This document shows, piece after piece, positions 1 through 10,625 of a stretch of 12,049 bases of DNA. The translations under genes were made by a program, and so were the position numbers. The notes beneath the pieces were generated by a model. It ran no database searches and had not been told where the DNA came from. It was given only the letters and a program-made list of their open reading frames with translations. This DNA comes from Comamonadaceae bacterium (GTDB lineage Bacteria; Pseudomonadota; Gammaproteobacteria; Burkholderiales; Burkholderiaceae_C), in the NCBI GenBank assembly GCA_947454585.1, contig CANGML010000031.1:1-12049 (forward strand). Direction: 5' to 3'. The first letter of the stretch is position 1, and each line of letters starts with the position of its first letter.

Positions 1-1391
1 AAGGGATCCACCGCCAAGTTGATCAGTTCGTTGCGACGACCGATACCTTGGTAAGCGATACCCAAATCAGCCAAGGCATCAGGGTTGTACAGATTGCGTC
101 CATCCAAGATGTAAGGCGTACGCATGCTCAGCTTCATGGCTTGGAAGTCGGGATTGTGAAAATTCTTCCATTCCGTCAAGATCATCAACGCATCGACCCC
201 CTCAAGCGCCGCCATATCATGCGCGACGAGCGTGAAGTGGTTCAGCAAGCCTTCTTGACCTGCGCAATCTAACCTCAAGGCTGTCATGGCTTCATGTCCT
301 GCCACAGGGTCGTAGGCTGTCACTGTCGCACCCCGTTGGAGCAGGCTCTTGATGACCACACGGCTAGGGGCTTCACGCATGTCATCGGTATTGGGTTTGA
401 AGGCCAAACCCCACACGGCGATTTTTCTTCCTGTCAAATCTTCACCCAAGCGTTTGACCAAGCGATCGACCAACAAGGTTTTTTGACGCTCATTGACTTG
501 CTCTGTGGCCGCGACCACTTGCATGTGATGGCCATGGGCCTGTGCGGTGCTGACCAAGGCTTGTGTGTCTTTGGGGAAGCAGCTGCCACCATAGCCACAA
601 CCGGCGTACAAGAAGCTGTAGCCAATGCGGTTATCTGCGCCAATGCCACGACGAATTTGATCTACATCGGCACCTAGGGCATCCGCCAAATTGGCGATTT
701 CATTCATGAAGGAAATGCGCGTGGCCAACATCGCATTGGCGGCGTACTTGGTGAGCTCGGCACTGCGAACATCCATCCAAACTGTGCGCGAATGGTGGCG
801 GTTAAAACTGGCGTACAAGTCACCCATCATGCGCTGACTCTTTTCATGATGAATACCCGCATCCACACCCACCACGATTCGGTCAGGGCGCATGAAATCA
901 TCAATCGCTGCCCCCTCTTTCAAGAACTCAGGATTTGAGACCACATCAAACATGTCAATCGACATGCCGCGTTGCGTCAGTTCATGACGCACAGCATCGC
1001 GGACACGATCTGCGGTTCCTACCGGCACAGTGGATTTGTTCACGATCAGTTTGAAGTCTTTTATATGACGTCCGATCATGGAAGCCACTGACAGCACATG
1101 CGCCAAATCTGCCGAGCCATCCTCTTGCGCTGGCGTGCCTACGGCGATAAACAAAATATCGCCATGGTCAATGGCCTCTTTTGCATCATCAGTGAATCGA
1201 ATACGGCCATCGGCTTGGTTGCGTGTCAGCAATTCTTTCAGCCCGGGTTCATAGATAGGAACCTCGCCCTCTTGCAGCATCTTGACCTTATGTTCATCCT
1301 TATCAAGGCACACCACCTTGAAACCCAAGTCAGATAAACATGCCCCTGTAACCAACCCCACGTAGCCTGAACCAATGACTGTGACTCGCAT
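1..1391 (-). CDS. ugd: UDP-glucose 6-dehydrogenase (partial, C-terminal tip outside window)
   Basis: Cytosolic enzyme that oxidises UDP-glucose to UDP-glucuronate with two NAD+, feeding acidic polysaccharides and possibly glucuronosyl lipids. The frame is open from the ATG at 1391 to the window edge (463 complete codons). The N-terminus carries the Rossmann motif [10 protein letters not shown] (residues 7-16). Further in are NKSTVPVGT, the central-domain stretch [14 protein letters not shown], and the active-site block [13 protein letters not shown] with the catalytic cysteine at residue 271. The UDP-binding C-terminal domain includes [19 protein letters not shown], and the visible end reads [10 protein letters not shown], which is where family members usually stop, so only a few residues should be missing. 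The start is well supported: an AGGAGG (1398-1403) sits 6 nt before it. A terminator separates it from the lipid operon upstream, so it is probably transcribed on its own. I saw no convincing Pho box in its leader. Confidence 0.95.
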
Positions 1392-1475
1392 AAATTTCCT
1401 CCTGAATGCCGTCATGGTTGCAGAACATCATGAAAGGAATAAGAAGAAAAAAAGTCAATTCGGTGACGGGGAGTC

Positions 1476-1499
1476 AAAAAAAATGACTCAGAGAGTCAT
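1476..1499 (-). terminator. Rho-independent terminator closing the olsB-plcP-agt-orf operon
   Basis: On the minus strand a perfect 7-bp stem, ATGACTC/GAGTCAT (1493-1499 with 1483-1489) and 3-nt loop, is followed directly by a run of eight T (1476-1483). It lies about 20 nt after the stop of the 127-residue gene and before the ugd leader, so it should end the four-gene lipid operon. A third copy of the arm (GAGTCA, 1471-1476) lies just beyond the T-run and could form an alternative hairpin. The stem is short and only moderately GC-rich. Confidence 0.75.
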
Positions 1500-1517
1500 G
1501 CGCAATTATTTGATTTT

Positions 1518-1901
1518 TTATCGTGGCTGCCAGTGTGCAACCCCCATCATCAAAAGCACACGCAAATGATTTTCTAGATTTTCTAGACCTTGTACTTTGA
1601 ATTCTTGTGACGACTGTCTGACATGAAAAAACTCATGCCGCGGAGGGAATTCAATACAGATCACATCTGGCACAAAACCCACGGGACATTGGAGTCGAAG
1701 CGTGGGGTATTGCCCATCAAACCGATTGGTACATGAAAAGCGAAAATTTATTTGCTGCGGCAATGGGTCAATCGATGCGATCAAGCCAGGCAACAAGTGC
1801 TCTCGCACATCGCCATAATCTAAATACCGATGCGTCTCTTTCAGGTGTGACTCAAAGTAAGCATCGCTCACACCATTGGACAAAAAATGAAGGGCACTCA
1901 A
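1518..1901 (-). CDS. Uncharacterised 127-residue protein, last gene of the lipid-remodelling operon
   Basis: I do not recognise this protein. It is soluble-looking, with no signal peptide or membrane segment. It has aromatic-rich alternating stretches typical of beta strands around residues 50-93 (INFRFSC, TLRLQCP, ICIEFPP, EFFHVR), an amphipathic C-terminal helix (about 105-120) and three cysteines (57, 72, 82). The start is a TTG at 1901 that overlaps the TGA of the glycosyltransferase (TTGA). GGAGG at 1909-1913 lies 7 nt before it, which is why I accept the non-ATG start. It is the fourth of four overlapping genes and is followed by a terminator, so it is made together with OlsB, PlcP and the glycosyltransferase. 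A role accessory to lipid remodelling is an inference from position only. Confidence 0.7.
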   Translation of the reverse strand: MSALHFLSNGVSDAYFESHLKETHRYLDYGDVREHLLPGLIASIDPLPQQINFRFSCTNRFDGQYPTLRLQCPVGFVPDVICIEFPPRHEFFHVRQSSQEFKVQGLENLENHLRVLLMMGVAHWQPR

Positions 1902-2965
1902 GGATGGACCTCCATCCCCTGAACGTGTGTGCGATCCATGCGAATCACATGCTGCTCAAACAACCGCGTGGACTCATCCCAGCTAAATAACAAAGCTTGC
2001 GCGCGCGCTTCAGAGCGAGGTATTTTTAAAGCTTCTAAGCTGGCATACGCCAAATCCTCGTGCAACACCCCACCCTTGCGGTGTTGTGGATCGTCCTTAT
2101 CAGGCCGTAAAACTTCCAAAGGACCATCCACCGGATAGGCTGCCACGGGTGTGCCGCAAGCCATCGCCTCCAGCATGACCAAGCCAAAGGTTTCATTCCG
2201 GCTGGGAAAAGTAAACACATCAGCCGCAGCGTAGACACGTGCCAATTCTTCGCGAGGTAGCACGCCCAACCAACGCACGTGCTGAAACTTAGCTTGCAGC
2301 TCTTTCTCCAGCGGGCCTACGCCACAGACCACTTTGCTGCCATGCCAAGGCATCGCCAAAAAGCTGTCGATGTTCTTTTCGTAAGACACGCGGCCCACAT
2401 ACAAGGCAATGGGTCGTGGCAGATCATCAAGGTCTGGATGGTGCGCCACCGTTTCTTCATAACTGAACAAACGCATATCGACGCCGTGCGTCCAGCTGCG
2501 TAAATTCTTAAAGCCCCAGCCCTCCAACAAGCGCATCACGCCGTGTGTGGGCACCAAAACACCCGAAGATGGCTTGTGAAAATGCCTGAAGATGGCATAA
2601 CCGATCCAAAGTGGAATTCGCAAGGCGGCTTTCAACACCTCGGGGAAACGCGTGTGAAATGCGGTGGTGAATGGCAGTGCGTGCTTCAAGCAATATTTGC
2701 GCGCTGCCCAGCCCAAGGGTCCCTCTGTCGCCACATGAATCACATCGGGGTGGAATGCATCCAGTTGGCGGGCTAACTGCTGATAGGGCCTGACGGCCAA
2801 ATCAATACCGGCGTAGCCTGGACAGGGCCGCGTCTTGAATAAATCTGGATGAATCACCTCCACCACATGTCCTTTGGCATGGAGCTGATCCACCAACTCC
2901 ACCAAGGTGGTCACCACCCCATTGATTTGGGGGCGCCAGGCGTCTGTGATTAGGGCGATCTTCAT
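1898..2965 (-). CDS. agt: GT4-family glycosyltransferase, Agt-like (probable diacylglycerol glycosyltransferase)
   Basis: Retaining GT-B glycosyltransferase of 355 residues, predicted to transfer a sugar from a nucleotide donor to diacylglycerol at the inner face of the cytoplasmic membrane. The N-terminal acceptor domain opens with TDAWRPQINGVVTTL (residues 7-21) and contains EGPLG (81-85) and AFHTRFPE (102-109). The donor domain has GRVSYEKN (191-198) with the usual Arg/Lys pair, and the E-x7-E signature as NETFGLVMLE (Glu258 and Glu266). The ATG at 2965 overlaps the plcP stop by 4 bp, and its own stop overlaps the next gene. Enzymes of this type sit beside plcP in bacteria that swap phospholipids for glycolipids under phosphate starvation (Agt makes glucosyl-, galactosyl- or glucuronosyl-DAG in Agrobacterium). 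The family call is firm. Substrate is inferred from context; a mannosyltransferase acting on another acceptor cannot be excluded. Confidence 0.8.
   Translation of the reverse strand: MKIALITDAWRPQINGVVTTLVELVDQLHAKGHVVEVIHPDLFKTRPCPGYAGIDLAVRPYQQLARQLDAFHPDVIHVATEGPLGWAARKYCLKHALPFTTAFHTRFPEVLKAALRIPLWIGYAIFRHFHKPSSGVLVPTHGVMRLLEGWGFKNLRSWTHGVDMRLFSYEETVAHHPDLDDLPRPIALYVGRVSYEKNIDSFLAMPWHGSKVVCGVGPLEKELQAKFQHVRWLGVLPREELARVYAAADVFTFPSRNETFGLVMLEAMACGTPVAAYPVDGPLEVLRPDKDDPQHRKGGVLHEDLAYASLEALKIPRSEARAQALLFSWDESTRLFEQHVIRMDRTHVQGMEVHP
1902..1917 (-). promoter_or_regulatory. Hairpin enclosing the ribosome binding site of the 127-residue gene
   Basis: In the mRNA, GGATGG and CCATCC can pair (6 bp) around an AGGT loop. 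The GGAGG Shine-Dalgarno sequence of the downstream TTG start lies partly in the stem and partly in the loop. The hairpin covers the last five sense codons of the glycosyltransferase, so ribosomes finishing that gene would open it. This looks like translational coupling; the pairing is visible in the sequence, the regulatory effect is inferred. Confidence 0.45.
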
Positions 2966-3735
2966 AGGGCTTTGGCCAGCTCTGCACTAGCAACCACCAC
3001 AGGTTCTGTTTGCCAATAGAGCAGCGACAACTCACCTTTGTCGTTTTCGACCAGGGCAGTTCGACTCTCCACCCAATCACCATCGTTGCAATACAAGACG
3101 CCATTGACATCACGTATTTCCGCACGGTGAATATGCCCACACACCACACCTTGGTAGCCATGTTTGGCGGCTTCATGGGCCACAGCATTTTCAAAATCGG
3201 TCACATAGTTCAGTGCTTTTTTGACTTTGTGCTTGAGGTAGGCAGACAAAGACCAGTAGGGCAAGCCCAAGCGTCCACGCATGTTGTTCAAATAACGGTT
3301 GAGTTTGAGCGTGAACTCATACAAATAGTCCCCCACATAAGCCAACCATTTGGCTTGCTGAACCACGGCATCAAAGTAGTCGCCATGAATCACCCACAAC
3401 TTTCGGCCATCGGCTGTTGTGTGCACCGCTTCATCTACCACTTCAATTCCGCCGAAATGATGATCAAGGAAATGCCTGGCAAACTCATCGTGGTTGCCTG
3501 GCACATAAATCACGCGACAGCCTTTGCGCGCTTTGCGCAAAAGCTTTTGTATCACGTCGTTGTGGGCTTGCGGCCAATACCAGCGACGGCGCAACTGCCA
3601 GCCATCAATGATGTCGCCCACCAAATACAAGTAATCACTGGTGTTTTCTTTCAGAAACTCCAGCAACGCATCCGCTTGGCACCCGGGCGTCCCCAAGTGC
3701 AAATCTGAAATGAAGATGGCGCGGTAGTGCATCAA
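2962..3735 (-). CDS. plcP: PlcP-like metallophosphoesterase (phospholipase C of lipid remodelling)
   Basis: Calcineurin-type metallophosphoesterase of 257 residues. The metal-binding set is complete: DLH (Asp11, His13), GDIID (Asp41), GNHDE (Asn81, His82), HGD (His117) and GHIH (His201, His203). It superficially resembles LpxH and is often annotated as UDP-2,3-diacylglucosamine hydrolase. However, the stretches WYWPQAHNDVIQKLLRKARKG (52-72) and RLGLPYWSLSAYLKHKVKKA (155-174) are those I associate with PlcP of Sinorhizobium, which removes the phosphorylated headgroup from phosphatidylcholine or phosphatidylethanolamine to leave diacylglycerol. Both flanking junctions are 4-bp ATGA overlaps, with olsB upstream and the glycosyltransferase downstream, the arrangement expected if the DAG made is glycosylated next. 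The start could be either of two adjacent ATG codons. The PlcP assignment rests on motif memory plus context. Confidence 0.82.
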   Translation of the reverse strand: MMHYRAIFISDLHLGTPGCQADALLEFLKENTSDYLYLVGDIIDGWQLRRRWYWPQAHNDVIQKLLRKARKGCRVIYVPGNHDEFARHFLDHHFGGIEVVDEAVHTTADGRKLWVIHGDYFDAVVQQAKWLAYVGDYLYEFTLKLNRYLNNMRGRLGLPYWSLSAYLKHKVKKALNYVTDFENAVAHEAAKHGYQGVVCGHIHRAEIRDVNGVLYCNDGDWVESRTALVENDKGELSLLYWQTEPVVVASAELAKAL

Positions 3736-4580
3736 GCGCCCAAAAAGTGTTTGCGGTAACGCGGTGGCATGTCGTTGATCTTCATCAACATGGGTAAATC
3801 AGCCGTGTTGAAATCTGGGTCCCAAGCGGGTGCCCCCAATACCTTGGCACCTAAGCGCAAGTAACCTTTGATCAATGCGGGCGGCTCAAACGCGGGGTTG
3901 ATGTCCCATTGCTCAACCGGCAGAGCCAAACGGGGCGTCACTTGGTTTTCAATACCCGCCAAATGGGTGGTCTTCAATTGGTGCCAAATACTGGCCGCCA
4001 CTTCGCCGCTCACCACACCTTGGTGCAACATAGGGATGCTGGCACAGCCGATCATCACATCGAGCTTGTTGCGCACCATGAATTCAGCCAATGCCCCCCA
4101 CAACGCCATGATGACGCCGCCATGGCGATGCTCTGGGTGAACGCAGCTGCGACCCAGTTCCACCATGCGATCACGGTATTGCCGTAAGCGCGTCAAATCA
4201 AATTCCAAATCAGAGTAGGTGCTGCCAATGCGCTTGGCTTGCGCCGGTGTCAAGACACGGTAGGTGCCAATCACTTGCCCAGAGACATCATCGCGAATGA
4301 TGAGGTGCTCACAAAAGTCATCGAACAAATCGATGTCATGACCAGGGATGGTGTCTTTCAAACGTGCGCCCATTTCGGTGGCAAACACGTCATAGCGCAA
4401 ACGCTGGGCCTCGCGCACTTCGTCTTGGTGCTTGGCCCATTCAACAATCAGGGCTGGTCGTGTTTCAGTTTTTTGGGCAGCGACAGAAACCTTTTGAGCG
4501 TCTTGATCGTGTCGATGAAGTGACCCCCGAGGTACATCGATGAATGACAAAGGCATGGTTGGATTTGGTAGTTCTTTCAT
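3732..4580 (-). CDS. olsB: L-ornithine N(alpha)-acyltransferase, first step of ornithine lipid synthesis
   Basis: GNAT-fold acyltransferase of 282 residues. It joins a 3-hydroxyacyl chain from acyl carrier protein to the alpha-amino group of ornithine, giving lyso-ornithine lipid. Family signatures visible are LRYDVFATEMGA (61-72), DLFDDFCEHLIIRD (84-97), VIGTYRVLTP (103-112), YSDLEFDL (122-129), the acyl-donor loop VELGRSCVHPEHRHGGVI (140-157) and MIGCASIP (176-183). Residues 1-45 are a variable N-terminal extension. The ATG at 4580 is preceded by AAGGA (4587-4591) with 6 nt spacing. It is the first gene of the four-gene operon and is divergent from olsA, so both enzymes of the ornithine lipid pathway share one regulatory region. 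A candidate Pho box lies in that region, in line with phosphate-limited induction of ornithine lipids in other proteobacteria. Length and motifs look intact. Confidence 0.92.
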   Translation of the reverse strand: MKELPNPTMPLSFIDVPRGSLHRHDQDAQKVSVAAQKTETRPALIVEWAKHQDEVREAQRLRYDVFATEMGARLKDTIPGHDIDLFDDFCEHLIIRDDVSGQVIGTYRVLTPAQAKRIGSTYSDLEFDLTRLRQYRDRMVELGRSCVHPEHRHGGVIMALWGALAEFMVRNKLDVMIGCASIPMLHQGVVSGEVAASIWHQLKTTHLAGIENQVTPRLALPVEQWDINPAFEPPALIKGYLRLGAKVLGAPAWDPDFNTADLPMLMKINDMPPRYRKHFLGA

Positions 4581-4609
4581 GATGTGTCCTTAGTGAATCA
4601 ATGGTTGAT

Positions 4610-4665
4610 ATTCTTAACAACGCATATGAATTAACTGGGAAGATTGCATGAAATATTCGTGACAA
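4610..4665 (-). promoter_or_regulatory. Candidate Pho-box promoter of the olsB operon
   Basis: Reading the minus strand, 7-mers recur exactly every 11 bp: TTGTCAC (4659-4665), ATTTCAT (4648-4654), a degenerate TCTTCCC (4637-4643) and AATTCAT (4626-4632). Ten bp after the last comes AAGAAT (4610-4615), a fair -10. This matches the PhoB-box layout (7-mer, 4-bp linker, 7-mer, 10-bp gap, -10). Transcription would begin near 4603, giving a leader of about 22 nt that contains the AAGGA ribosome site. Called by eye; the middle units are weak. Confidence 0.55.
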
Positions 4666-4710
4666 ACTTCACACGGCGTTCACCGATTTGTCACACAGCA
4701 TGCCTATGCT
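4666..4710 (+). promoter_or_regulatory. Candidate Pho-box promoter of olsA
   Basis: Three plus-strand 7-mers lie exactly 11 bp apart: ACTTCAC (4666-4672), CGTTCAC (4677-4683) and TTGTCAC (4688-4694). Each contains TTCAC or GTCAC. TATGCT (4705-4710) follows after exactly 10 bp, the gap typical of PhoB-dependent promoters. The first unit directly abuts the first unit of the olsB Pho box on the other strand (4659-4665), so the two sites sit back to back. The predicted transcription start is near 4717, only a few nt before the olsA start codon. Confidence 0.62.
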
Positions 4711-4722
4711 TGAGCGCTAACT

Positions 4723-5466
4723 ATGCTGATCAAATACCTACGACTCGTGCACGCGTTCGGACGCGCCTTTTGGATTTTGTGGGTCAAGTTCCCCAAACTC
4801 GACCGCGATCAAAAACTTGAATGTATTCAGAAGTGGTCGCACGACACTTTAAAAATTTTAGGGATTCATGTGGTGCATGAAACACCCTTGGCACACGTTG
4901 AAAACTCTGAATCCCCTCTTCTCCTGGTCGGCAACCATGTCTCATGGGTTGATGCGCTGATCATCCAATCGATACAGCCCAGCATTTTTGTAGCGAAATC
5001 TGAAGTCAAGGGCTGGCCGATTGTGGGCCATATTGCTACCGGTTGCGGCGTTGTCTTTGTAGATCGTGGCTCACCCAGCTCAGCACGTCGTATGGTCGAC
5101 GATGTGGCAAGCGCTCTGCACCATGGCTATTGCGTGGCGGGTTTTCCTGAGGGCACCAGCAGCGAAGGTAGCTCGGTGAGTTTGTTTCACGCCAACTTAT
5201 TTGAAGCAGCCATCAACCACCAAGTGCAGGTGCTGCCCTTGGCGATTCGCTACACCAACCCTACTACGGGTGCGCTGTGCTTGAAAGCTGCATTCATTGG
5301 TGACATCGGCTTTGTGGCCTCGCTTCACCAAGTGATGTCGTCAGCAGGTATTCAAGCCAAGGTCCATGTCGGCGCGATGCTGTCACCCCAAGGTCATTCC
5401 CGCCGAACTTTGGCCCATTTGTCTCACCGCAGCGTGAGTCATCAACTTGAATTACTCAACGCATAA
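4723..5466 (+). CDS. olsA: Lyso-ornithine lipid O-acyltransferase (PlsC family)
   Basis: PlsC-type 1-acyl transferase of 247 residues that adds the second, ester-linked acyl chain to lyso-ornithine lipid at the cytoplasmic membrane. Motif I is NHVSWVD (71-77, the H-x4-D catalytic pair His72/Asp77). Motif II lies around KSEVKGWPIVG (92-102), followed by VFVDRG (111-116). Motif III is FPEGTSSEG (141-149). A hydrophobic patch near residues 10-22 may help membrane contact. General PlsC (phosphatidate synthesis) is the alternative, but the short length, single domain and divergent pairing with olsB favour OlsA. No clear Shine-Dalgarno sequence precedes the ATG, which fits the very short leader predicted from the Pho-box promoter. 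The 3' end overlaps the TRAP permease gene by 11 bp tail to tail, so no separate terminator is visible. Confidence 0.87.
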   Translation: MLIKYLRLVHAFGRAFWILWVKFPKLDRDQKLECIQKWSHDTLKILGIHVVHETPLAHVENSESPLLLVGNHVSWVDALIIQSIQPSIFVAKSEVKGWPIVGHIATGCGVVFVDRGSPSSARRMVDDVASALHHGYCVAGFPEGTSSEGSSVSLFHANLFEAAINHQVQVLPLAIRYTNPTTGALCLKAAFIGDIGFVASLHQVMSSAGIQAKVHVGAMLSPQGHSRRTLAHLSHRSVSHQLELLNA

Positions 5467-7261
5467 GCGTAGCGACCATTGTCGGTAAACCGGTTGCCAA
5501 CAAAGGCAGCCAAGAGATGATCATGGTGCCTACAAAGATAGCCAACAATGCGGGTGCTACGCAAGCCGCGACCGTTCGAATGGGTTGCTTGAACACCGCA
5601 GAAGCGAAGTAAATGTTCATGCCAGCCGGCGGACACAAAAATCCCATTTCCATGTTCGCCAAGAAGATGATGCCGAAATGCACGGGGTCGATGCCATAGC
5701 TGGTGGCTAAAGGCAGCAGCAACGGCACCAACACCACGATGGCGGCATAGATTTCCATGAGTGCGCCTGCTGCAAACAAAAACACATTCAAAGCCAACAG
5801 AAATACCCATTTGTTTTGGGTCACGCTTTGCACCCACTCGGTGGCCAAGTCGGGGATGCCTGCATCGACCAAATAGTTGGTAAGCCCCAAGGCCATACCC
5901 AAGATCAACATCACGCCACCAATGATCTGCGTGCATTGCGACAAACATTCGCCCAGTTTTTTACTGTCCAACTCATGGTGTGCCCAAGCTTGTGTCAGCA
6001 CGGCATAGATGGCCGTCAAGGCAGCGCTCTCAGTCGGTGTGGCAAAGCCACTGCCCAAGGAGCCAATGGCTACGACGGGCGCCAACAACTCCCACTTGGC
6101 ATGCCATGCAGCTGTCTTTAAAGCATGCACATCGCGCACCGCTGCTGGTCCGTGCTCGGAAGGAATCGCGTCCTGACGCAAATAGCCACCAAAGATCAAC
6201 AAGCACACCACCATCAACACAGCGGGGACAACGCCCGCCAGGAACATGGTGTTGATGGGCACGCGGGCAATGATGGCGTACATGATCAGCGGTACCGAGG
6301 GCGCAAGCAACACACCCAAGGCACTGGCACTGGTCACCAAGCTGATCCCTTTTTTATCGGGGTATCCCACCCCTTGCAGCAAGGGCAGCAACAAACCGCC
6401 TAACGCCAAAATAGTGACGCCGCTGCCGCCCGTGAAAGCGGTGAAGCAAGAACACAGCACTGTCGCTGCGATCACCGTACCGGCTTTACCGCCACCAAAC
6501 AGCGCCACAAACACTGCGCCTAAGCGTTGGGCCGCGCCAGTACCTGCAAAAATCAATCCCGCTAAGGTGAAAAGAGGTAAAGCAGGCAAGGAAGGGTTGA
6601 CTGTGATTTGGTAATGCGACAAGGCAATCGACGCCAGTGGCAACCCTTCTTGCCAAAACAACGCCAAGGCTAAACCGCCTAACACCGTAAAAATGGGGGC
6701 GCCAAACGACAACAGCATCGCCAACACAACCGCCCAAGGCCAAAAGGGCAAAGCTTGGCCATCCAAGGCATAAGCAACGTAGGCACCCAGCCAAGGTGCC
6801 ATGAGGGCACCTGCCCATTTGAGGACTATTTGGGTTGAACAGCGCGCACCGAGCTTCATCCCCAGCACCGCAAAGCCCATCGGCATGGTGGCTTGAAACC
6901 ACCACACAGGAATGCCATAAGCCAAGACCTGCTCGGCGCCCCGCTCGCTGAGCACCAGCTGTGCGCTGGCCCATGCCAGCACACCACAAATCGCGGCAGC
7001 ACCTAATTGCCCAAGCGCAGACCAACGCGGCACCATCACACCTAGGCTGGTGAGGTGGCCATCACGTTCGGCCGCGATTGCGCCGCCCATCGCCATCAGC
7101 AAACCCAGGTGTTGAACCACCACGGAGGCGTTATCGATGCCTTTGCCCATCAAAGGGCGCGACAAAATTTCGACCAAAGGGATCAGCGCCATCAAGACCA
7201 GCGCCAAAGACGCCACGCCTATATCGGCCTGGGTCAAACCTCGCAATAAACGCCCCATCAC
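5456..7261 (-). CDS. TRAP transporter fused permease, DctQ-DctM
   Basis: Inner-membrane permease of 601 residues in which the small and large TRAP subunits are one polypeptide. Residues about 1-148 form a four-helix DctQ-like domain (hydrophobic blocks near 15-33, 48-64, 86-105 and 118-137). A linking helix lies around 150-168. Residues about 172-601 are a full-length DctM, with the family pattern LPLFTLAG (228-235), FGGGKAG (255-261), FTAFTGGSGVTI (273-284) and LLAPSVPLIMYA (318-329). It uses ion gradients to import a solute handed over by the binding protein encoded upstream. The start is a GTG at 7261 overlapping the dctP stop (AGGGA lies 7 nt upstream) or the next codon, an ATG at 7258 (TGATG overlap). 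It is the last gene of the tatT-dctP-dctQM operon and convergent with olsA. Confidence 0.9.
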   Translation of the reverse strand: MMGRLLRGLTQADIGVASLALVLMALIPLVEILSRPLMGKGIDNASVVVQHLGLLMAMGGAIAAERDGHLTSLGVMVPRWSALGQLGAAAICGVLAWASAQLVLSERGAEQVLAYGIPVWWFQATMPMGFAVLGMKLGARCSTQIVLKWAGALMAPWLGAYVAYALDGQALPFWPWAVVLAMLLSFGAPIFTVLGGLALALFWQEGLPLASIALSHYQITVNPSLPALPLFTLAGLIFAGTGAAQRLGAVFVALFGGGKAGTVIAATVLCSCFTAFTGGSGVTILALGGLLLPLLQGVGYPDKKGISLVTSASALGVLLAPSVPLIMYAIIARVPINTMFLAGVVPAVLMVVCLLIFGGYLRQDAIPSEHGPAAVRDVHALKTAAWHAKWELLAPVVAIGSLGSGFATPTESAALTAIYAVLTQAWAHHELDSKKLGECLSQCTQIIGGVMLILGMALGLTNYLVDAGIPDLATEWVQSVTQNKWVFLLALNVFLFAAGALMEIYAAIVVLVPLLLPLATSYGIDPVHFGIIFLANMEMGFLCPPAGMNIYFASAVFKQPIRTVAACVAPALLAIFVGTMIISWLPLLATGLPTMVATLMR

Positions 7262-8280
7262 TTGGCTTTCCCTGCGCGATAGGCCTTCAAGTGACGGAAC
7301 ACTTCATCAAATGTGTCAGCAGGCACCAAGGTGCCGCGAATACGGGGGTACAACTTATCAGCCAAGTCGTTCCAGGCACGCAGTTGTTCTGCATTGGGTT
7401 TGTTGACGACCAAGCCTCGCTTTTTCATGGCGTCAACGGCCTCTTCCACCTCTTGACGTGCTTTGGCGCGAATTTGCGCCCCGGCTTTGTCACTGGCTGT
7501 GCGCACCGCGGCTTGGCTATCGGGGGACATCTCGTCCCATGATTTTTTAGTCACGACCAAGGCACCGACGATGGGCGCCCAGTTGATTTCCAACATATGG
7601 GGGGCCATGGTGTAAACCTGACTCGCCAAGGCAAAGTAAGGCGTTGAAGGCACCACATTGATCATGCCCGTTTGCACAGAGGGCAAGATGTCACTGGTCT
7701 CTAAGGGAACAGGGGTGTAGCCCATGCTTTTCATGATCTCTTGTTGATCAGCCTCGCCACCCCAGGCGAAGAACTTCATTTTTTGATAGTCCTCCGGTTT
7801 GAATGCGGGCTCTTTGGAAAAGAACCGAACCCAGCCTGCATCGCCCCACGCTAAAACGACGAATCCTTTGTCGAGAAACTTCTTCTCCATGGCAGGACGC
7901 ATCTTTTCACGCACATAGTCCACCTCCTCCCACGACTTGAACAACAGTGGCATGGACTGCAAGGCGGCAATGGAGGGTTCAATTTCACGCAGGCCCACCA
8001 CGGAGAGCAGGGCCCCCTGCAACTGGCCAATGCGCATGCGGCGTGCCATCTCGGTCTCACCACCTTGGCTGCCATCTGGAAACACCACAAACTTAGCATT
8101 ACCCCCCTGCGCGGTGCGCCATGCATCACCAATCTCCATCAACTGACGGTGGTAAAGCGAGTTTTTGGGGGCAAGGGTGCCAAAGCGCAGTTGCTTGTCA
8201 GCGGACCACGAAGTGGCTTGGCTCAACAACAGGCTGGCACCCACGCAAATTTGCACACACGATTTAAAAAATTTAGACAT
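7258..8280 (-). CDS. TRAP transporter periplasmic substrate-binding protein, DctP family (TatP-like)
   Basis: Periplasmic solute receptor of 340 residues. A Sec signal peptide has a Lys-containing start, a hydrophobic core at residues 9-20 and a likely cut after SWSA (Ala27). The mature protein begins LRFGTLAPKNS, followed by FPDGSQGGETEMARRMRIG (67-85) and LETSDILPSVQTGMINVVPS (193-212), the order seen in DctP proteins. In typical family members an arginine in a K-[IVM]-R-V segment near the middle clamps the substrate carboxylate; here the equivalent stretch reads KMKFFAW (167-173) with phenylalanine at that place, suggesting a different or non-carboxylate ligand. It starts 9 bp after tatT with only a weak ribosome site (GAAAG) and overlaps the permease gene. 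The ligand is unknown. Confidence 0.9.
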   Translation of the reverse strand: MSKFFKSCVQICVGASLLLSQATSWSADKQLRFGTLAPKNSLYHRQLMEIGDAWRTAQGGNAKFVVFPDGSQGGETEMARRMRIGQLQGALLSVVGLREIEPSIAALQSMPLLFKSWEEVDYVREKMRPAMEKKFLDKGFVVLAWGDAGWVRFFSKEPAFKPEDYQKMKFFAWGGEADQQEIMKSMGYTPVPLETSDILPSVQTGMINVVPSTPYFALASQVYTMAPHMLEINWAPIVGALVVTKKSWDEMSPDSQAAVRTASDKAGAQIRAKARQEVEEAVDAMKKRGLVVNKPNAEQLRAWNDLADKLYPRIRGTLVPADTFDEVFRHLKAYRAGKAK

Positions 8281-8289
8281 TTATGACTT

Positions 8290-9165
8290 TCAAAATAGAT
8301 CTTCAACCGTGTCGAGCAGCCACTGCGCACGCTCACGCATCACTTCGTTTTGCAGGCTACGGTGCTGCTTGCTAATTTCTAAGGCTTGGTTGAGCAGTTG
8401 TTCAAACTGCTGTTTATCTTCAGCAGGCAGCGCCACCCCCTCAGCCTTAGCCACATAGGGACCCGCGTCTTGGCCTTGGCTCCACGTGATCGCCTGATCG
8501 AAATAGGCCACTATTTTTTGTGTCGAACCACCTACTTTTGCCGCCTCCAAGGTGCCCATCAAACTGGCCAAAGCGCCCCTACCAAACTCGGGATTGGCTT
8601 TCCATGCGAGCTCAGCCAAACGCATCGACAGGGGTAAATCAGCCACCAAATCTGGGTCGTCTTTGGACATCGAAATCCAACCGCCCAACGATGCCGCCGC
8701 CCAATAAGCCAACGGGACTTGCGCCTGTGTCAGGCGGGGGTGCTTGCTTGCATCCGATTGCCCAATGGCAGCGGTGATACCTGGCGCACTCAGCTCCAAT
8801 GCCGTCATCGCGTGACGATGTGCACGCGCATACAAGCGGGCCGCACGCTCACGCATGTGAGCTGCCGCTTTGGGCGCTTGGGCATCGATCTTTTCGGCAT
8901 CCAAAGCCACAAAGGCGTAGGCGTATTGCGTGAAGCCCGAAGACACCGATTCGGCCAACTTCAAATGACCCGGTGTTTCTTTCAACACCGATTCAGAGAA
9001 CTTCAAATAAAACGCACTCGCTTCACGGGCCAATTGCAGATCGTCCTCGCTTGACACAGGCTGACTCGACAACGCATGTGCGGTTTGGTCCATCACATAG
9101 GGGCGAACTGCGCAGCCTGAAAAAGCCAGCATCAGCGCCAACAAGGGCATAAGTCGGTATGAAAT
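8290..9165 (-). CDS. tatT: TatT-type TRAP-associated lipoprotein (TPR-like)
   Basis: Helical lipoprotein resembling the TatT component of TPR-associated TRAP (TPAT) transporters, known from Treponema pallidum, where it pairs with the binding protein. Lipobox-like AFSGC is followed by alanine, which predicts outer-membrane sorting. The rest is almost all helical, with repeated aromatic/alanine-rich hairpins (for example AYAFVALDAEKI, AARLYARAHRHAMTALELS, PLAYWAAASLGGWI) typical of this family. The start is unusual. Upstream TTG codons at 9237 and 9231 lie on top of a candidate promoter and lack a ribosome site, while the ATG at 9150 has none at useful distance and would leave no basic residue in the signal peptide. 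AGAGG (9173-9177) sits 7 nt before an ATT at 9165, so I prefer that; 9150 is the conservative alternative. Family call firm, start uncertain. Confidence 0.8.
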   Translation of the reverse strand: MSYRLMPLLALMLAFSGCAVRPYVMDQTAHALSSQPVSSEDDLQLAREASAFYLKFSESVLKETPGHLKLAESVSSGFTQYAYAFVALDAEKIDAQAPKAAAHMRERAARLYARAHRHAMTALELSAPGITAAIGQSDASKHPRLTQAQVPLAYWAAASLGGWISMSKDDPDLVADLPLSMRLAELAWKANPEFGRGALASLMGTLEAAKVGGSTQKIVAYFDQAITWSQGQDAGPYVAKAEGVALPAEDKQQFEQLLNQALEISKQHRSLQNEVMRERAQWLLDTVEDLF

Positions 9166-9172
9166 AGGACGA

Positions 9173-9177
9173 CCTCT
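9173..9177 (-). promoter_or_regulatory. Ribosome binding site deciding the tatT start
   Basis: The minus strand reads AAAAGAGGTC, and the AGAGG core is 7 nt from an in-frame ATT (9163-9165) but 22 nt from the nearest ATG. It lies downstream of the predicted transcription start near 9197, so it would be in the leader. It argues for AUU initiation, or else marks a weakly translated gene. Confidence 0.45.
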
Positions 9178-9203
9178 TTTGAAGTGTTGAAAAAACTGAG
9201 AAA

Positions 9204-9237
9204 AATATAAGTCGGCAATATGAATATTCAATGACAA
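9204..9237 (-). promoter_or_regulatory. Candidate Pho-box promoter of the tatT-dctP-dctQM operon
   Basis: On the minus strand TTGTCAT (9231-9237) and TATTCAT (9220-9226) are spaced 11 bp apart with linker TGAA. After exactly 10 bp comes TATATT (9204-9209), five of six matches to the -10 consensus. The first unit matches the enteric CTGTCAT unit in six of seven positions; the second shares only TCAT. An ordinary promoter reading (TTGAAT at 9226-9231, 16 bp, TATATT) is also possible, and the two are not exclusive. Confidence 0.55.
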
Positions 9238-9291
9238 GCGTCATCAAGTTGAAACAGTTCAAGCGGATGATTCCGACAAAAGGAAATAACC

Positions 9292-10173
9292 ATGAGCGAC
9301 ACACATCAACTCGACGAAGCACAAATTCAACGCTTGCGCGAAGACATCTTGGACACGCTGGATGAAGAGCTTGAGATGTCGATTGACGAAGCGGGTGACA
9401 ACACCGACCGCGTCACGTACTTTCGGGAACTGCTGCGCCTGCAAGGCGAATTGGTCAAGCTGCAAGACTGGGTGGTGGCCACCAAACAAAAAGTAGTGAT
9501 TCTCTTTGAAGGTCGCGACGCAGCAGGCAAAGGCGGTGTGATCAAACGCATCACACAACGCCTCAACCCGCGCGTCTGTCGGGTAGCCGCCCTGCCGGCC
9601 CCCAACGACCGTGAACGCACACAGTGGTACTTTCAACGCTATGTGTCGCACTTGCCTGCCGCCGGAGAAATCGTCTTGTTTGACCGCAGCTGGTACAACC
9701 GCGCAGGCGTAGAACGCGTGATGGGGTTCTGCAATGACGATGAGTACGAGGAATTTTTCCGCACTGTGCCAGAGTTCGAGAAGATGCTGGCGCGCAGCGG
9801 TATCACGCTGATCAAGTACTGGTTTTCCATCACTGACGACGAACAACACAGCCGCTTCTTAGGACGTATCCACGACCCTTTGAAACAATGGAAGCTCAGC
9901 CCCATGGACCTAGAAAGTCGTCGCCGCTGGGAAGATTACACGGTGGCCAAAGAAACCATGATCGAACGCACACATATTCCCGAGGCGCCGTGGTGGGTGG
10001 TGCAGGCAGTCGACAAGAAGAGCGCTCGCTTGAATTGCATTCACCATTTGCTGGGGCATTTCAACTACCACGAGATTGAGCACCCGGAAATCGCATTACC
10101 CGCTCGCGTTCGCAATCCTGACTACATCCGACACCCTATTCCCCACGACATGATCGTTCCAGAAATCTATTGA
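9292..10173 (+). CDS. ppk2: Polyphosphate kinase 2 (class I PPK2)
   Basis: P-loop kinase of 293 residues moving phosphate between polyphosphate and nucleoside diphosphates (ADP or GDP); many class I enzymes favour using polyphosphate to regenerate NTP. The Walker A motif is GRDAAGKGG (74-82, Lys80) and the Walker B/lid region is DRSWYNRAGVERVMGF (131-146), preceded by RERTQWYFQRY (107-117). A C-terminal block near 255-292 includes ARVRNPDYIRHP. Residues 1-40 are acidic and helical. Length is standard for a single-domain class I enzyme, as opposed to the shorter or tandem-domain types. The ATG at 9292 has AAGGA (9280-9284) 7 nt upstream. It is divergent from tatT and followed by dgkA, which has its own promoter signals. 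I found no Pho box oriented toward ppk2; the one in this gap points to tatT, though PhoB bound there could affect both. Confidence 0.95.
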   Translation: MSDTHQLDEAQIQRLREDILDTLDEELEMSIDEAGDNTDRVTYFRELLRLQGELVKLQDWVVATKQKVVILFEGRDAAGKGGVIKRITQRLNPRVCRVAALPAPNDRERTQWYFQRYVSHLPAAGEIVLFDRSWYNRAGVERVMGFCNDDEYEEFFRTVPEFEKMLARSGITLIKYWFSITDDEQHSRFLGRIHDPLKQWKLSPMDLESRRRWEDYTVAKETMIERTHIPEAPWWVVQAVDKKSARLNCIHHLLGHFNYHEIEHPEIALPARVRNPDYIRHPIPHDMIVPEIY

Positions 10174-10187
10174 GCAGCTTTGCGTAA

Positions 10188-10221
10188 TTTTCATCAACGC
10201 GTCATAAAAGATAGATAAATT
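10188..10221 (+). promoter_or_regulatory. Candidate Pho-box promoter of dgkA
   Basis: TTTTCAT (10188-10194) and GCGTCAT (10199-10205) share TCAT at 11-bp spacing with linker CAAC. Exactly 10 bp later stands TAAATT (10216-10221), four of six to the -10 consensus. The geometry is the same as at olsA and tatT. The predicted transcription start is about 10228, almost at the dgkA ATG (10230). Only two units are present and the first is weak outside TTCAT. Confidence 0.5.
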
Positions 10222-10229
10222 TACACACG

Positions 10230-10625
10230 ATGAACGAGATTCATGAAAACTTGCAAAAGCAAAGACGTGGTTTGAACAGAATTGTTCACGCCTTTGGCTA
10301 TTCCATGCAAGGCTTGAAGGCAGGCATGCTTGAACCTGCCTTCAAGCAAGAAGCCTATCTGGCGTTGGTACTGATCCCGCTCTCGTTTTTGGTTGGAAAC
10401 AACTGGGTCGAAATTTCAATTCTTTCAGGATCGGTCATATTTGTGTTGACAGTTGAACTTCTAAACACGGGCCTAGAGTCCGCCATCGATCGCGTGGGCC
10501 CCCAGTGGCACGATTTATCTAAACGCTGCAAAGACTTGGGCAGCGCGGCGGTGCTTCTTAGCATCTTGTTGTGTTTGGCCATCTGGTTAGCAGCCTTGTT
10601 TGCAAAATTACCGCACTACCTGTGA
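10230..10625 (+). CDS. dgkA: Diacylglycerol kinase (prokaryotic DgkA)
   Basis: Small inner-membrane kinase of 131 residues phosphorylating diacylglycerol to phosphatidic acid with MgATP. The family core is intact: EPAFKQE (35-41), VELLNTGLESAIDRV (75-89) and HDLSKRCKDLGSAAVLLS (94-111). Glu76 corresponds to the E. coli catalytic Glu69, and Glu35 and Glu83 to the metal ligands Glu28 and Glu76. Three membrane helices fit residues about 43-56, 60-80 and 106-126. No Shine-Dalgarno sequence precedes the ATG, and the candidate Pho-box promoter predicts a near-leaderless transcript. In this neighbourhood its likely substrate is DAG released by the PlcP-like enzyme, so it competes with the glycosyltransferase for DAG or recycles the surplus. 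It lies 56 bp after ppk2; read-through from ppk2 is also possible. Confidence 0.93.
   Translation: MNEIHENLQKQRRGLNRIVHAFGYSMQGLKAGMLEPAFKQEAYLALVLIPLSFLVGNNWVEISILSGSVIFVLTVELLNTGLESAIDRVGPQWHDLSKRCKDLGSAAVLLSILLCLAIWLAALFAKLPHYL

Follow-up and report, generated by a model that had tools for sequence, protein, structure and literature searches.

An operon joining olsB, plcP and agt in a Comamonadaceae contig: a predicted phosphate-starvation lipid-replacement locus

Bacteria under phosphorus stress can replace membrane lipids, as documented for marine alphaproteobacteria, methanotrophs and Pseudomonas (PMC8528852, PMC9239053, PMC4796936, PMC5082522; here and below, cited studies are used as far as their accessible passages go). 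Here, we study a candidate locus for this response in a Comamonadaceae bacterium, i.e., the whole contig CANGML010000031.1 of 12,049 bases (assembly GCA_947454585.1; 1.82 Mb, 261 contigs, 69% complete), which we call the window and whose core is an operon of olsB, plcP, agt and a small gene termed orfX. Among the described systems, PlcP, Agt1 and Agt2 have been tested experimentally in P. aeruginosa, where Agt1 makes glucosyl-diacylglycerol (glucosyl-DAG) and Agt2 makes GADG (PMC8528852). PlcP, DagK, OlsA, OlsB and the UDP-glucose dehydrogenase TuaD are PHO-dependent in P. putida BIRD-1 (PMC5082522). Given these two studies, the statement of the first-pass annotation of the window that such responses are mainly studied in alphaproteobacteria is out of date. 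In methanotrophs of types II and Ib, plcP usually lies just upstream of agt, and OlsB/A are found in some (PMC9239053), while six plcP gene arrangements are described for marine bacteria (PMC4796936). Within Burkholderia sensu lato, P. xenovorans replaces phosphatidylethanolamine at low phosphate, by ornithine lipids as judged from the context (PMC7814305). The open-access literature covered (titles, abstract openings and some passages; subscription papers were mostly outside) reports neither a combined olsB-plcP-agt operon nor OrfX; among the listed papers, a single one contains both plcP and Burkholderiales (PMC12981677).

The first-pass annotation described an overlapping operon of olsB, plcP, agt and a gene of unknown function, together with a divergent olsA and with ugd, ppk2 and dgkA close by. 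Open reading frames (ORFs), strands and overlaps confirm this layout. That is, olsB (3732-4580), which heads the operon, plcP (2962-3735), agt (1898-2965) and orfX (1518-1901; 127 aa, start TTG) are all on the minus strand with a 4-nt overlap between every neighbouring pair, and olsA (4723-5466) is divergent from olsB on the plus strand. The description was thus right in its genes but omitted a TRAP transporter (tatT-dctP-dctQM, 5456-9237, minus strand).

We read the window as the left half of a cluster for lipid replacement under phosphate starvation, with a probability of about 0.85. At low phosphate, phosphorylated PhoB would activate the olsB-plcP-agt-orfX operon together with olsA and the TRAP/ppk2 region, as suggested by their Pho boxes. 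PlcP would then cut membrane phospholipids to diacylglycerol (DAG), to which Agt would add glucose, yielding glucosyl-DAG; orthology to experimentally tested enzymes is the basis for predicting both steps. OlsB and OlsA, judged by their families, would make a phosphate-free ornithine lipid, and DgkA may turn surplus DAG into phosphatidic acid. OrfX would act as a subunit of Agt, which is suggested by gene fusion and constant adjacency, and Ugd would provide UDP-glucuronate for an Agt2-type enzyme expected just past the contig end from synteny with relatives, leading to the acidic glycolipid GADG. Every enzyme type involved is known; the shared operon is the variant.

For the comparison with P. 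aeruginosa, we take the reference genes to be PA3219, PA3218 and PA0842 based on gene order, their names being absent from the records. The window resembles PA3219-PA3218 and PA0842 in its PlcP (60.7% identity) and Agt1 (44.5%), in the position of plcP directly upstream of agt and in the Pho box; an Agt2-type gene (44%) is found in relatives of the window, too. In P. aeruginosa, Agt2 is unlinked and no olsB is found in the 8.7 kb seen around plcP-agt, whereas olsB heads the operon of the window, orfX follows agt, and the Agt2 gene of the relatives is in the same cluster, mostly with ugd. With P. putida BIRD-1, the window shares the functional set, including a DAG kinase and a UDP-glucose dehydrogenase, although DagK may be of another family than DgkA. 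In that strain, the set was shown by proteomics and the locus tags given place olsA-olsB far from plcP, while the physical cluster of the window is known from sequence alone. S. meliloti shares PlcP (53.2%), an OlsB-like ORF (34.0%) and the same predicted reactions. Its plcP, however, has quorum-sensing genes (LuxR and acyl-homoserine-lactone synthase) and a gene for an MFS transporter as neighbours, and the 8.7 kb seen there contain neither agt nor olsB. In that record, the olsB-like and olsA-like ORFs are separated from each other by about 15 kb and from plcP by 1.6 Mb. Finally, a betaproteobacterial OlsB with predicted Pho boxes is known from Burkholderia sensu lato (21/43 genomes with the first matrix; PMC7814305), but the word plcP is absent from that paper, and its accessible passages describe no agt in the olsB locus.

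Public annotation labels proteins such as the PlcP of the window UDP-2,3-diacylglucosamine diphosphatase, i.e., LpxH. We searched a plasmid collection and found 32 matched records (H1-H32; the weakest of these matches may not be PlcP), of which 24 name the PlcP-matching feature, in 24/24 cases with this label, and 8 leave it unnamed; PlcP is therefore easily missed. Furthermore, the only solved structures matched by the PlcP sequence are LpxH. One could thus take the window's metallophosphoesterase for an enzyme of lipid A synthesis (LpxH type) and the adjacent glycosyltransferase for one of lipopolysaccharide or exopolysaccharide synthesis, given that family 4 glycosyltransferases (GT4) often make cell-surface glycans and that the solved relatives of Agt form a mixed GT4 list. 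We consider this hardly credible. The protein stays below both LpxH equivalog cut-offs (50.4 vs. 134 bits and 43.7 vs. 190.35 bits), while a separate phosphoesterase of the same genome passes both models (245.7 and 203 bits). It shows complete metallophosphoesterase motifs with GNH(D/E), here GNHD with N81-H82, where the genome's own LpxH has GNR, i.e., an Arg in place of the His. Arg in the GNR motif is typical of LpxH. Within an alignment of 83 PlcP sequences, the columns of the motif residues D11, H13, D41, N81, H82, H117, H201 and H203 are at least 97% conserved. The P. aeruginosa PlcP reference gene is located upstream of a glycosyltransferase gene and a cyclase gene. Its product and the S. 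meliloti PlcP are 46.6% identical in our measurement, in agreement with the printed 46% (PMC8528852). Together with the 60.7% identity of the window protein to the P. aeruginosa reference and the frequent pairing with Agt-type enzymes, these data led us to reject LpxH. A functional LpxH, which the first-pass annotation had raised as an alternative, is thus argued against at the sequence level, and its PlcP-like label is supported: the phosphoesterase is of PlcP type, i.e., resembles intracellular phospholipase C, with a predicted cleavage of phospholipids to DAG. As an aside, a Mitsuaria plasmid (L099:4917-9700) carries plcP followed by ppk1 and ppx, another sign of a polyphosphate link, with no agt or olsB within that stretch.

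The agt product is a GT4 glycosyltransferase closer to the Agt1 reference than to the Agt2 reference (44.5% vs. 31.1% identity), and its gene directly follows plcP with a 4-nt overlap. The agt-like name given before is hence borne out, and the enzyme is of Agt1 type, for which UDP-glucose:DAG transfer is predicted, i.e., a monoglucosyl-DAG synthase.

We compared the gene order around plcP across Burkholderiales, as the first-pass annotation had proposed. Close loci are here the best 80 of at least 590 relatives from one genome scan; many carry Comamonadaceae or one of its genera in their title, others give no more than Burkholderiales or beta proteobacterium, and the closest by PlcP (91-94% identity) are the Comamonadaceae/Burkholderiales assemblies L004-L007. 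Counting loci with enough flank, olsB is found just upstream of plcP in 63/78 and agt just downstream in 50/76. Both flank plcP in 46/74 loci, olsB only in 15, agt only in 2 and neither in 11. The order olsB-plcP-agt thus recurs, usually ahead of ppk1, which is within 4 kb downstream in 46/67 close loci. That is, the earlier view of both lipid branches being wired into one regulon holds with respect to the shared operon, while the arrangement is found well beyond this genome. In the 48 close loci whose flanks reach 8 kb in both directions, ppk1 and sixA are present in 39 each, ppx in 32, pstS in 18, psd, an aminotransferase gene, mpo1 and agt2 in 10 each, LplT in 7, olsA and ppk2 in 4 each, dgkA and ugd in 3 each, and the TRAP genes and corA in 2.

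For a wider view, 250 genomes of Burkholderiales were searched for PlcP, of which 171 matched and 132 did so at E <= 1e-30 (own genome included). From these, we use 60 chosen loci of 33 families (again including our own) with flanks of about 8 kb on either side, a few of which are truncated by contig ends. An adjacent agt is found in 34/60 (23 families), agt2 in 10/60 (8 families) and olsB within the stretch in 15/60 (9 families); ppx follows with 9, ppk1 with 8, pstS with 5, olsA with 4 and ugd and ppk2 with 1 each. By our own estimate, the chance that a 17-kb stretch of a 4-Mb genome includes any given single gene is about 0.4%, and olsB, dgkA and the polyphosphate genes are therefore real partners of plcP. 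One genus with small genomes has ppk2 and olsA in divergent orientation to plcP-agt-dgkA (3/3 genomes), and olsB comes next in the one locus fetched more widely (L165), which gives nearly the set of the window in another order. With a close PlcP in 132 of the 250 sampled genomes and an operon commonly shared with olsB in close loci, such bacteria would be good subjects for studying the balance between two phosphorus-free lipid branches. By title, close loci include Limnohabitans, Rhodoferax and Polaromonas. These genera are common in fresh water. According to a 2026 study, marine systems show a more pronounced lipid replacement than freshwater ones (PMC13086504).

Pho boxes were scored with a matrix from 22 pstS upstream regions (21/22 have a site with at least 12/14 consensus matches, and those 21 were used) and related to a null of 693 upstream regions of other genes. 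The window holds four sites with 12/14 matches vs. 1.05 expected. Three of them are upstream of genes: the box of the olsB operon (4648-4665, minus strand, TTGTCACGAATATTTCAT; null fraction 0.013), a candidate box of olsA (4677-4694, plus strand, CGTTCACCGATTTGTCAC; null fraction 0.069) and the box in the tatT/ppk2 gap (9220-9237, minus strand, TTGTCATTGAATATTCAT; null fraction 0.029). The fourth, inside olsA, was taken as chance. A weak candidate for dgkA (10188-10205, plus strand, TTTTCATCAACGCGTCAT; null fraction 0.23) has 11/14 matches; the window has 8 sites of this level vs. 8.2 expected, and the same-strand site of ppk2 has the same null fraction of 0.23. Among aligned genomes, the olsB box is kept with at most single changes in 5/5, the half-sites of the olsA box in 5/5 and the tatT/ppk2 box with small changes in 3/3; the region of the dgkA box aligns poorly in relatives. 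Over all olsB upstream regions, 34/64 exceed the 95th percentile of the null (25/43 without the loci that gave pstS sites), and the mean plain consensus score is 11.06 vs. 9.85 for shuffles. PhoB itself is encoded in the genome of the window (G000:C67) with 321.2 bits vs. a cut-off of 296.2; it exceeds this cut-off in 49/61 genomes searched and is matched at E <= 0.001 in 61/61. We infer PhoB control of the olsB operon, olsA and the TRAP/ppk2 region. From the earlier claim of candidate Pho boxes before four transcription units, which were not named, the sites of olsB and the TRAP/ppk2 gap are well supported, that of olsA modestly and that of dgkA weakly.

The ugd gene (3-1415, minus strand) encodes a UDP-glucose 6-dehydrogenase for UDP-glucuronate supply (TIGR03026, 437.8 bits vs. 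a cut-off of 189.8) and is incomplete, running off the contig end. To follow the order beyond this point, we re-fetched 9 of the 11 other genomes carrying orfX, namely 6 with a separate orfX and 3 with orfX fused to agt. In 6/6 of the former, the order continues with LplT, agt2, an mpo1-like gene, a class-III aminotransferase gene, psd and ppk1, with ugd before LplT in 5/6. In 3/3 fusion relatives, ppk1 follows and none of the LplT-agt2 block is seen. L004 and L005 encode a second glycosyltransferase, which shares 44-45% identity with Agt2 and 33-34% with Agt1. Among the 80 close loci, ugd is restricted to those that carry genes of the agt2 block (7/18 vs. 0/62; Fisher p ~1e-5, in a test that ignores relatedness and includes short contigs). 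As the recipient of UDP-glucuronate from Ugd, an enzyme of Agt2 type encoded past the contig end is thus more likely than the Agt of the window, and the simplest reading of the gene orders is an insertion of the LplT-agt2 block between agt-orfX and ppk1 in the lineage of the window. The conserved block itself (L004:13077-18889, L193-L198) encodes LplT, an Agt2-type glycosyltransferase, an Mpo1-like protein, an N-terminally extended class-III aminotransferase and a Psd that matches the archaetidylserine-decarboxylase model. Genes of the latter two types are near plcP in 5 (psd) and 6 (aminotransferase) of the 33 wide families, and in 0/60 wide loci together with an adjacent Agt1 gene. An Mpo1-like gene is close to plcP-agt in the P. 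aeruginosa record as well (L098:3956-7737).

Several results weigh against reading the window as a PhoB-controlled cluster that makes ornithine lipids and glycolipids. The first ones concern the ornithine-lipid enzymes. OlsB, which resembles ornithine N-acyltransferases (PF13444, 119.7 bits), has OlsB models as its best curated NCBIfam matches, whose names point to Rhodobacter and Brucella, but it stays below their equivalog cut-offs (163.6 vs. 350 and 148.1 vs. 320 bits). The same holds for OlsA, which resembles lyso-ornithine lipid O-acyltransferases (PF01553), and the NCBIfam OlsA models (116.1 vs. 300 and 93.1 vs. 300 bits), so that we file both as OlsB-like and OlsA-like, respectively. 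A general 1-acylglycerol-3-phosphate acyltransferase model reaches 81.8 bits on OlsA, likewise under its cut-off and near the 116.1 bits of the OlsA model. Along with the only 34.0% identity of OlsB to the S. meliloti ORF, this would suit an aminolipid branch in which both enzymes acylate another amino acid (glycine, glutamine or lysine) instead of ornithine. We regard such a branch as improbable, since the next other family on OlsB is far lower (44.4 bits vs. 148 and 164 for the OlsB models) and since ornithine lipids are made by the OlsBA pathway in Burkholderia (PMC7814305).

A second group of opposing results concerns regulation. Only 5/64 olsB upstream regions exceed the 99th percentile of the null, and 25/64 have no site above 10/14, the level of shuffles; the boxes of dgkA and ppk2 are weak at their null fraction of 0.23. 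The P. putida study lists Ppk and Ppx among the proteins without PhoBR regulation (PMC5082522). The lipid enzymes could be rightly named while the operon is not under PhoB, i.e., the lipids would be constitutive and the clustering historical. The moderate box scores and the lack of a clear olsB box in many relatives would fit this, and so would Burkholderia sensu stricto, where ornithine lipids are constitutive even though some members have predicted Pho boxes before olsB (PMC7814305). Against it stand the conservation of the olsB and tatT/ppk2 boxes, the enrichment of sites upstream of olsB over the null, the neighbourhood of pstS, ppk1 and ppx, and the PhoB gene of the genome; we thus give constitutive expression a low chance as well.

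The remaining points concern gene order. The close loci, being the best 80 of one scan, are related and non-independent, and 28/74 assessable ones are without the full olsB-plcP-agt order. Of the wide loci, only 5/60 (2 families) have olsB directly upstream of plcP. Furthermore, no Agt2 was found in the window's own assembly, which is 69% complete and whose contig ends inside ugd.

OrfX has no Pfam or NCBIfam match, and its predicted structure is confident without a clear match to any solved structure. Including that of the window, all 19 homologues found have 127 aa. OrfX occurs in 12/101 genomes searched (own included), all in one genus of 41, and directly follows agt in 12/12 of these. It is a separate gene in 9 carriers and an in-frame continuation of Agt in the other 3 (open frame of 483 aa), where the fused part is 34.5-35.8% identical to the OrfX of the window. 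There are signs of purifying selection on OrfX: the ratio of nonsynonymous to synonymous change (dN/dS) is 0.06-0.13 in the 7/28 pairs with computable dS, only 2 of which have dS < 1; the other pairs are saturated, and their synonymous change far exceeds the nonsynonymous one. The gene evolves much faster than agt, with 57-63% identity between genomes whose Agt is 86-90% identical.

Because of the fusion to the C-terminus of Agt in 3/12 genomes and the constant adjacency, OrfX is probably a subunit or partner of Agt. The restriction to one genus, the lack of a known family or clear fold match and the fast evolution could also be expected for a lineage-specific gene that is unrelated to Agt and co-transcribed with it by chance. 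Considering its position right after agt in 12/12 genomes, its place in the Agt frame in 3 of them and the signs of purifying selection, we find such a chance association rather unlikely. With regard to the function of an Agt partner, we tentatively propose, as a speculative possibility, that OrfX is a genus-restricted regulatory domain of a membrane-lipid glycosyltransferase, either fused or translationally coupled, which would set the share of DAG that goes to neutral glucosyl-DAG via Agt1 relative to the Agt2/GADG, ornithine-lipid and DgkA branches. If true, the bacterium would tune membrane charge and phosphorus content from a single locus. OrfX is a small candidate for the control of an Agt enzyme. 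New here are the OrfX-Agt fusion in 3/12 carriers and the Agt2-type module that follows in 6/6 re-fetched split-gene relatives.

On the other side of olsA, the window continues with the minus-strand genes dctQM (5456-7261), encoding a fused DctQ-DctM TRAP permease (PF04290 and PF06808), dctP (7258-8280; TRAP solute-binding protein, PF03480) and tatT (8290-9237; TatT lipoprotein of the TRAP system, PF16811 with 174.9 bits), followed on the plus strand by ppk2 (9292-10173; polyphosphate kinase 2, TIGR03707 passed with 374.1 bits vs. a cut-off of 301.8) and dgkA (10230-10625; diacylglycerol kinase, PF01219 passed with 96 bits vs. a cut-off of 22.3, no NCBIfam match). After ppk2 and dgkA, corA adjoins on the dgkA side. 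The earlier link of a DAG kinase to plcP is supported, as dgkA is near plcP in 11/60 wide loci (8/33 families) and follows plcP-agt in 8 of these 11. Polyphosphate turnover had been placed side by side with the lipid genes, too. Here, ppk2 is indeed present and is near plcP in 13/80 close loci, but in only 1/60 wide loci; ppk1 and ppx are the commoner polyphosphate partners. TRAP genes and corA are found in 0/60 wide loci each and thus are not general plcP partners. PPK2 and the TRAP transporter appear to be local additions, and any roles in the pathway are guesses.

A TatT-type TRAP transporter with fused DctQM and a conserved Pho box is located inside the cluster in 8/9 re-fetched relatives, and dctP-dctQM is again found beside olsB-plcP in close locus L035. 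As listed, the tatT ORF starts at 9237, inside the Pho box. It contains the lipobox-like sequence MPLLALMLAFSGC, and given this lipoprotein signal, the true start is probably near 9150.

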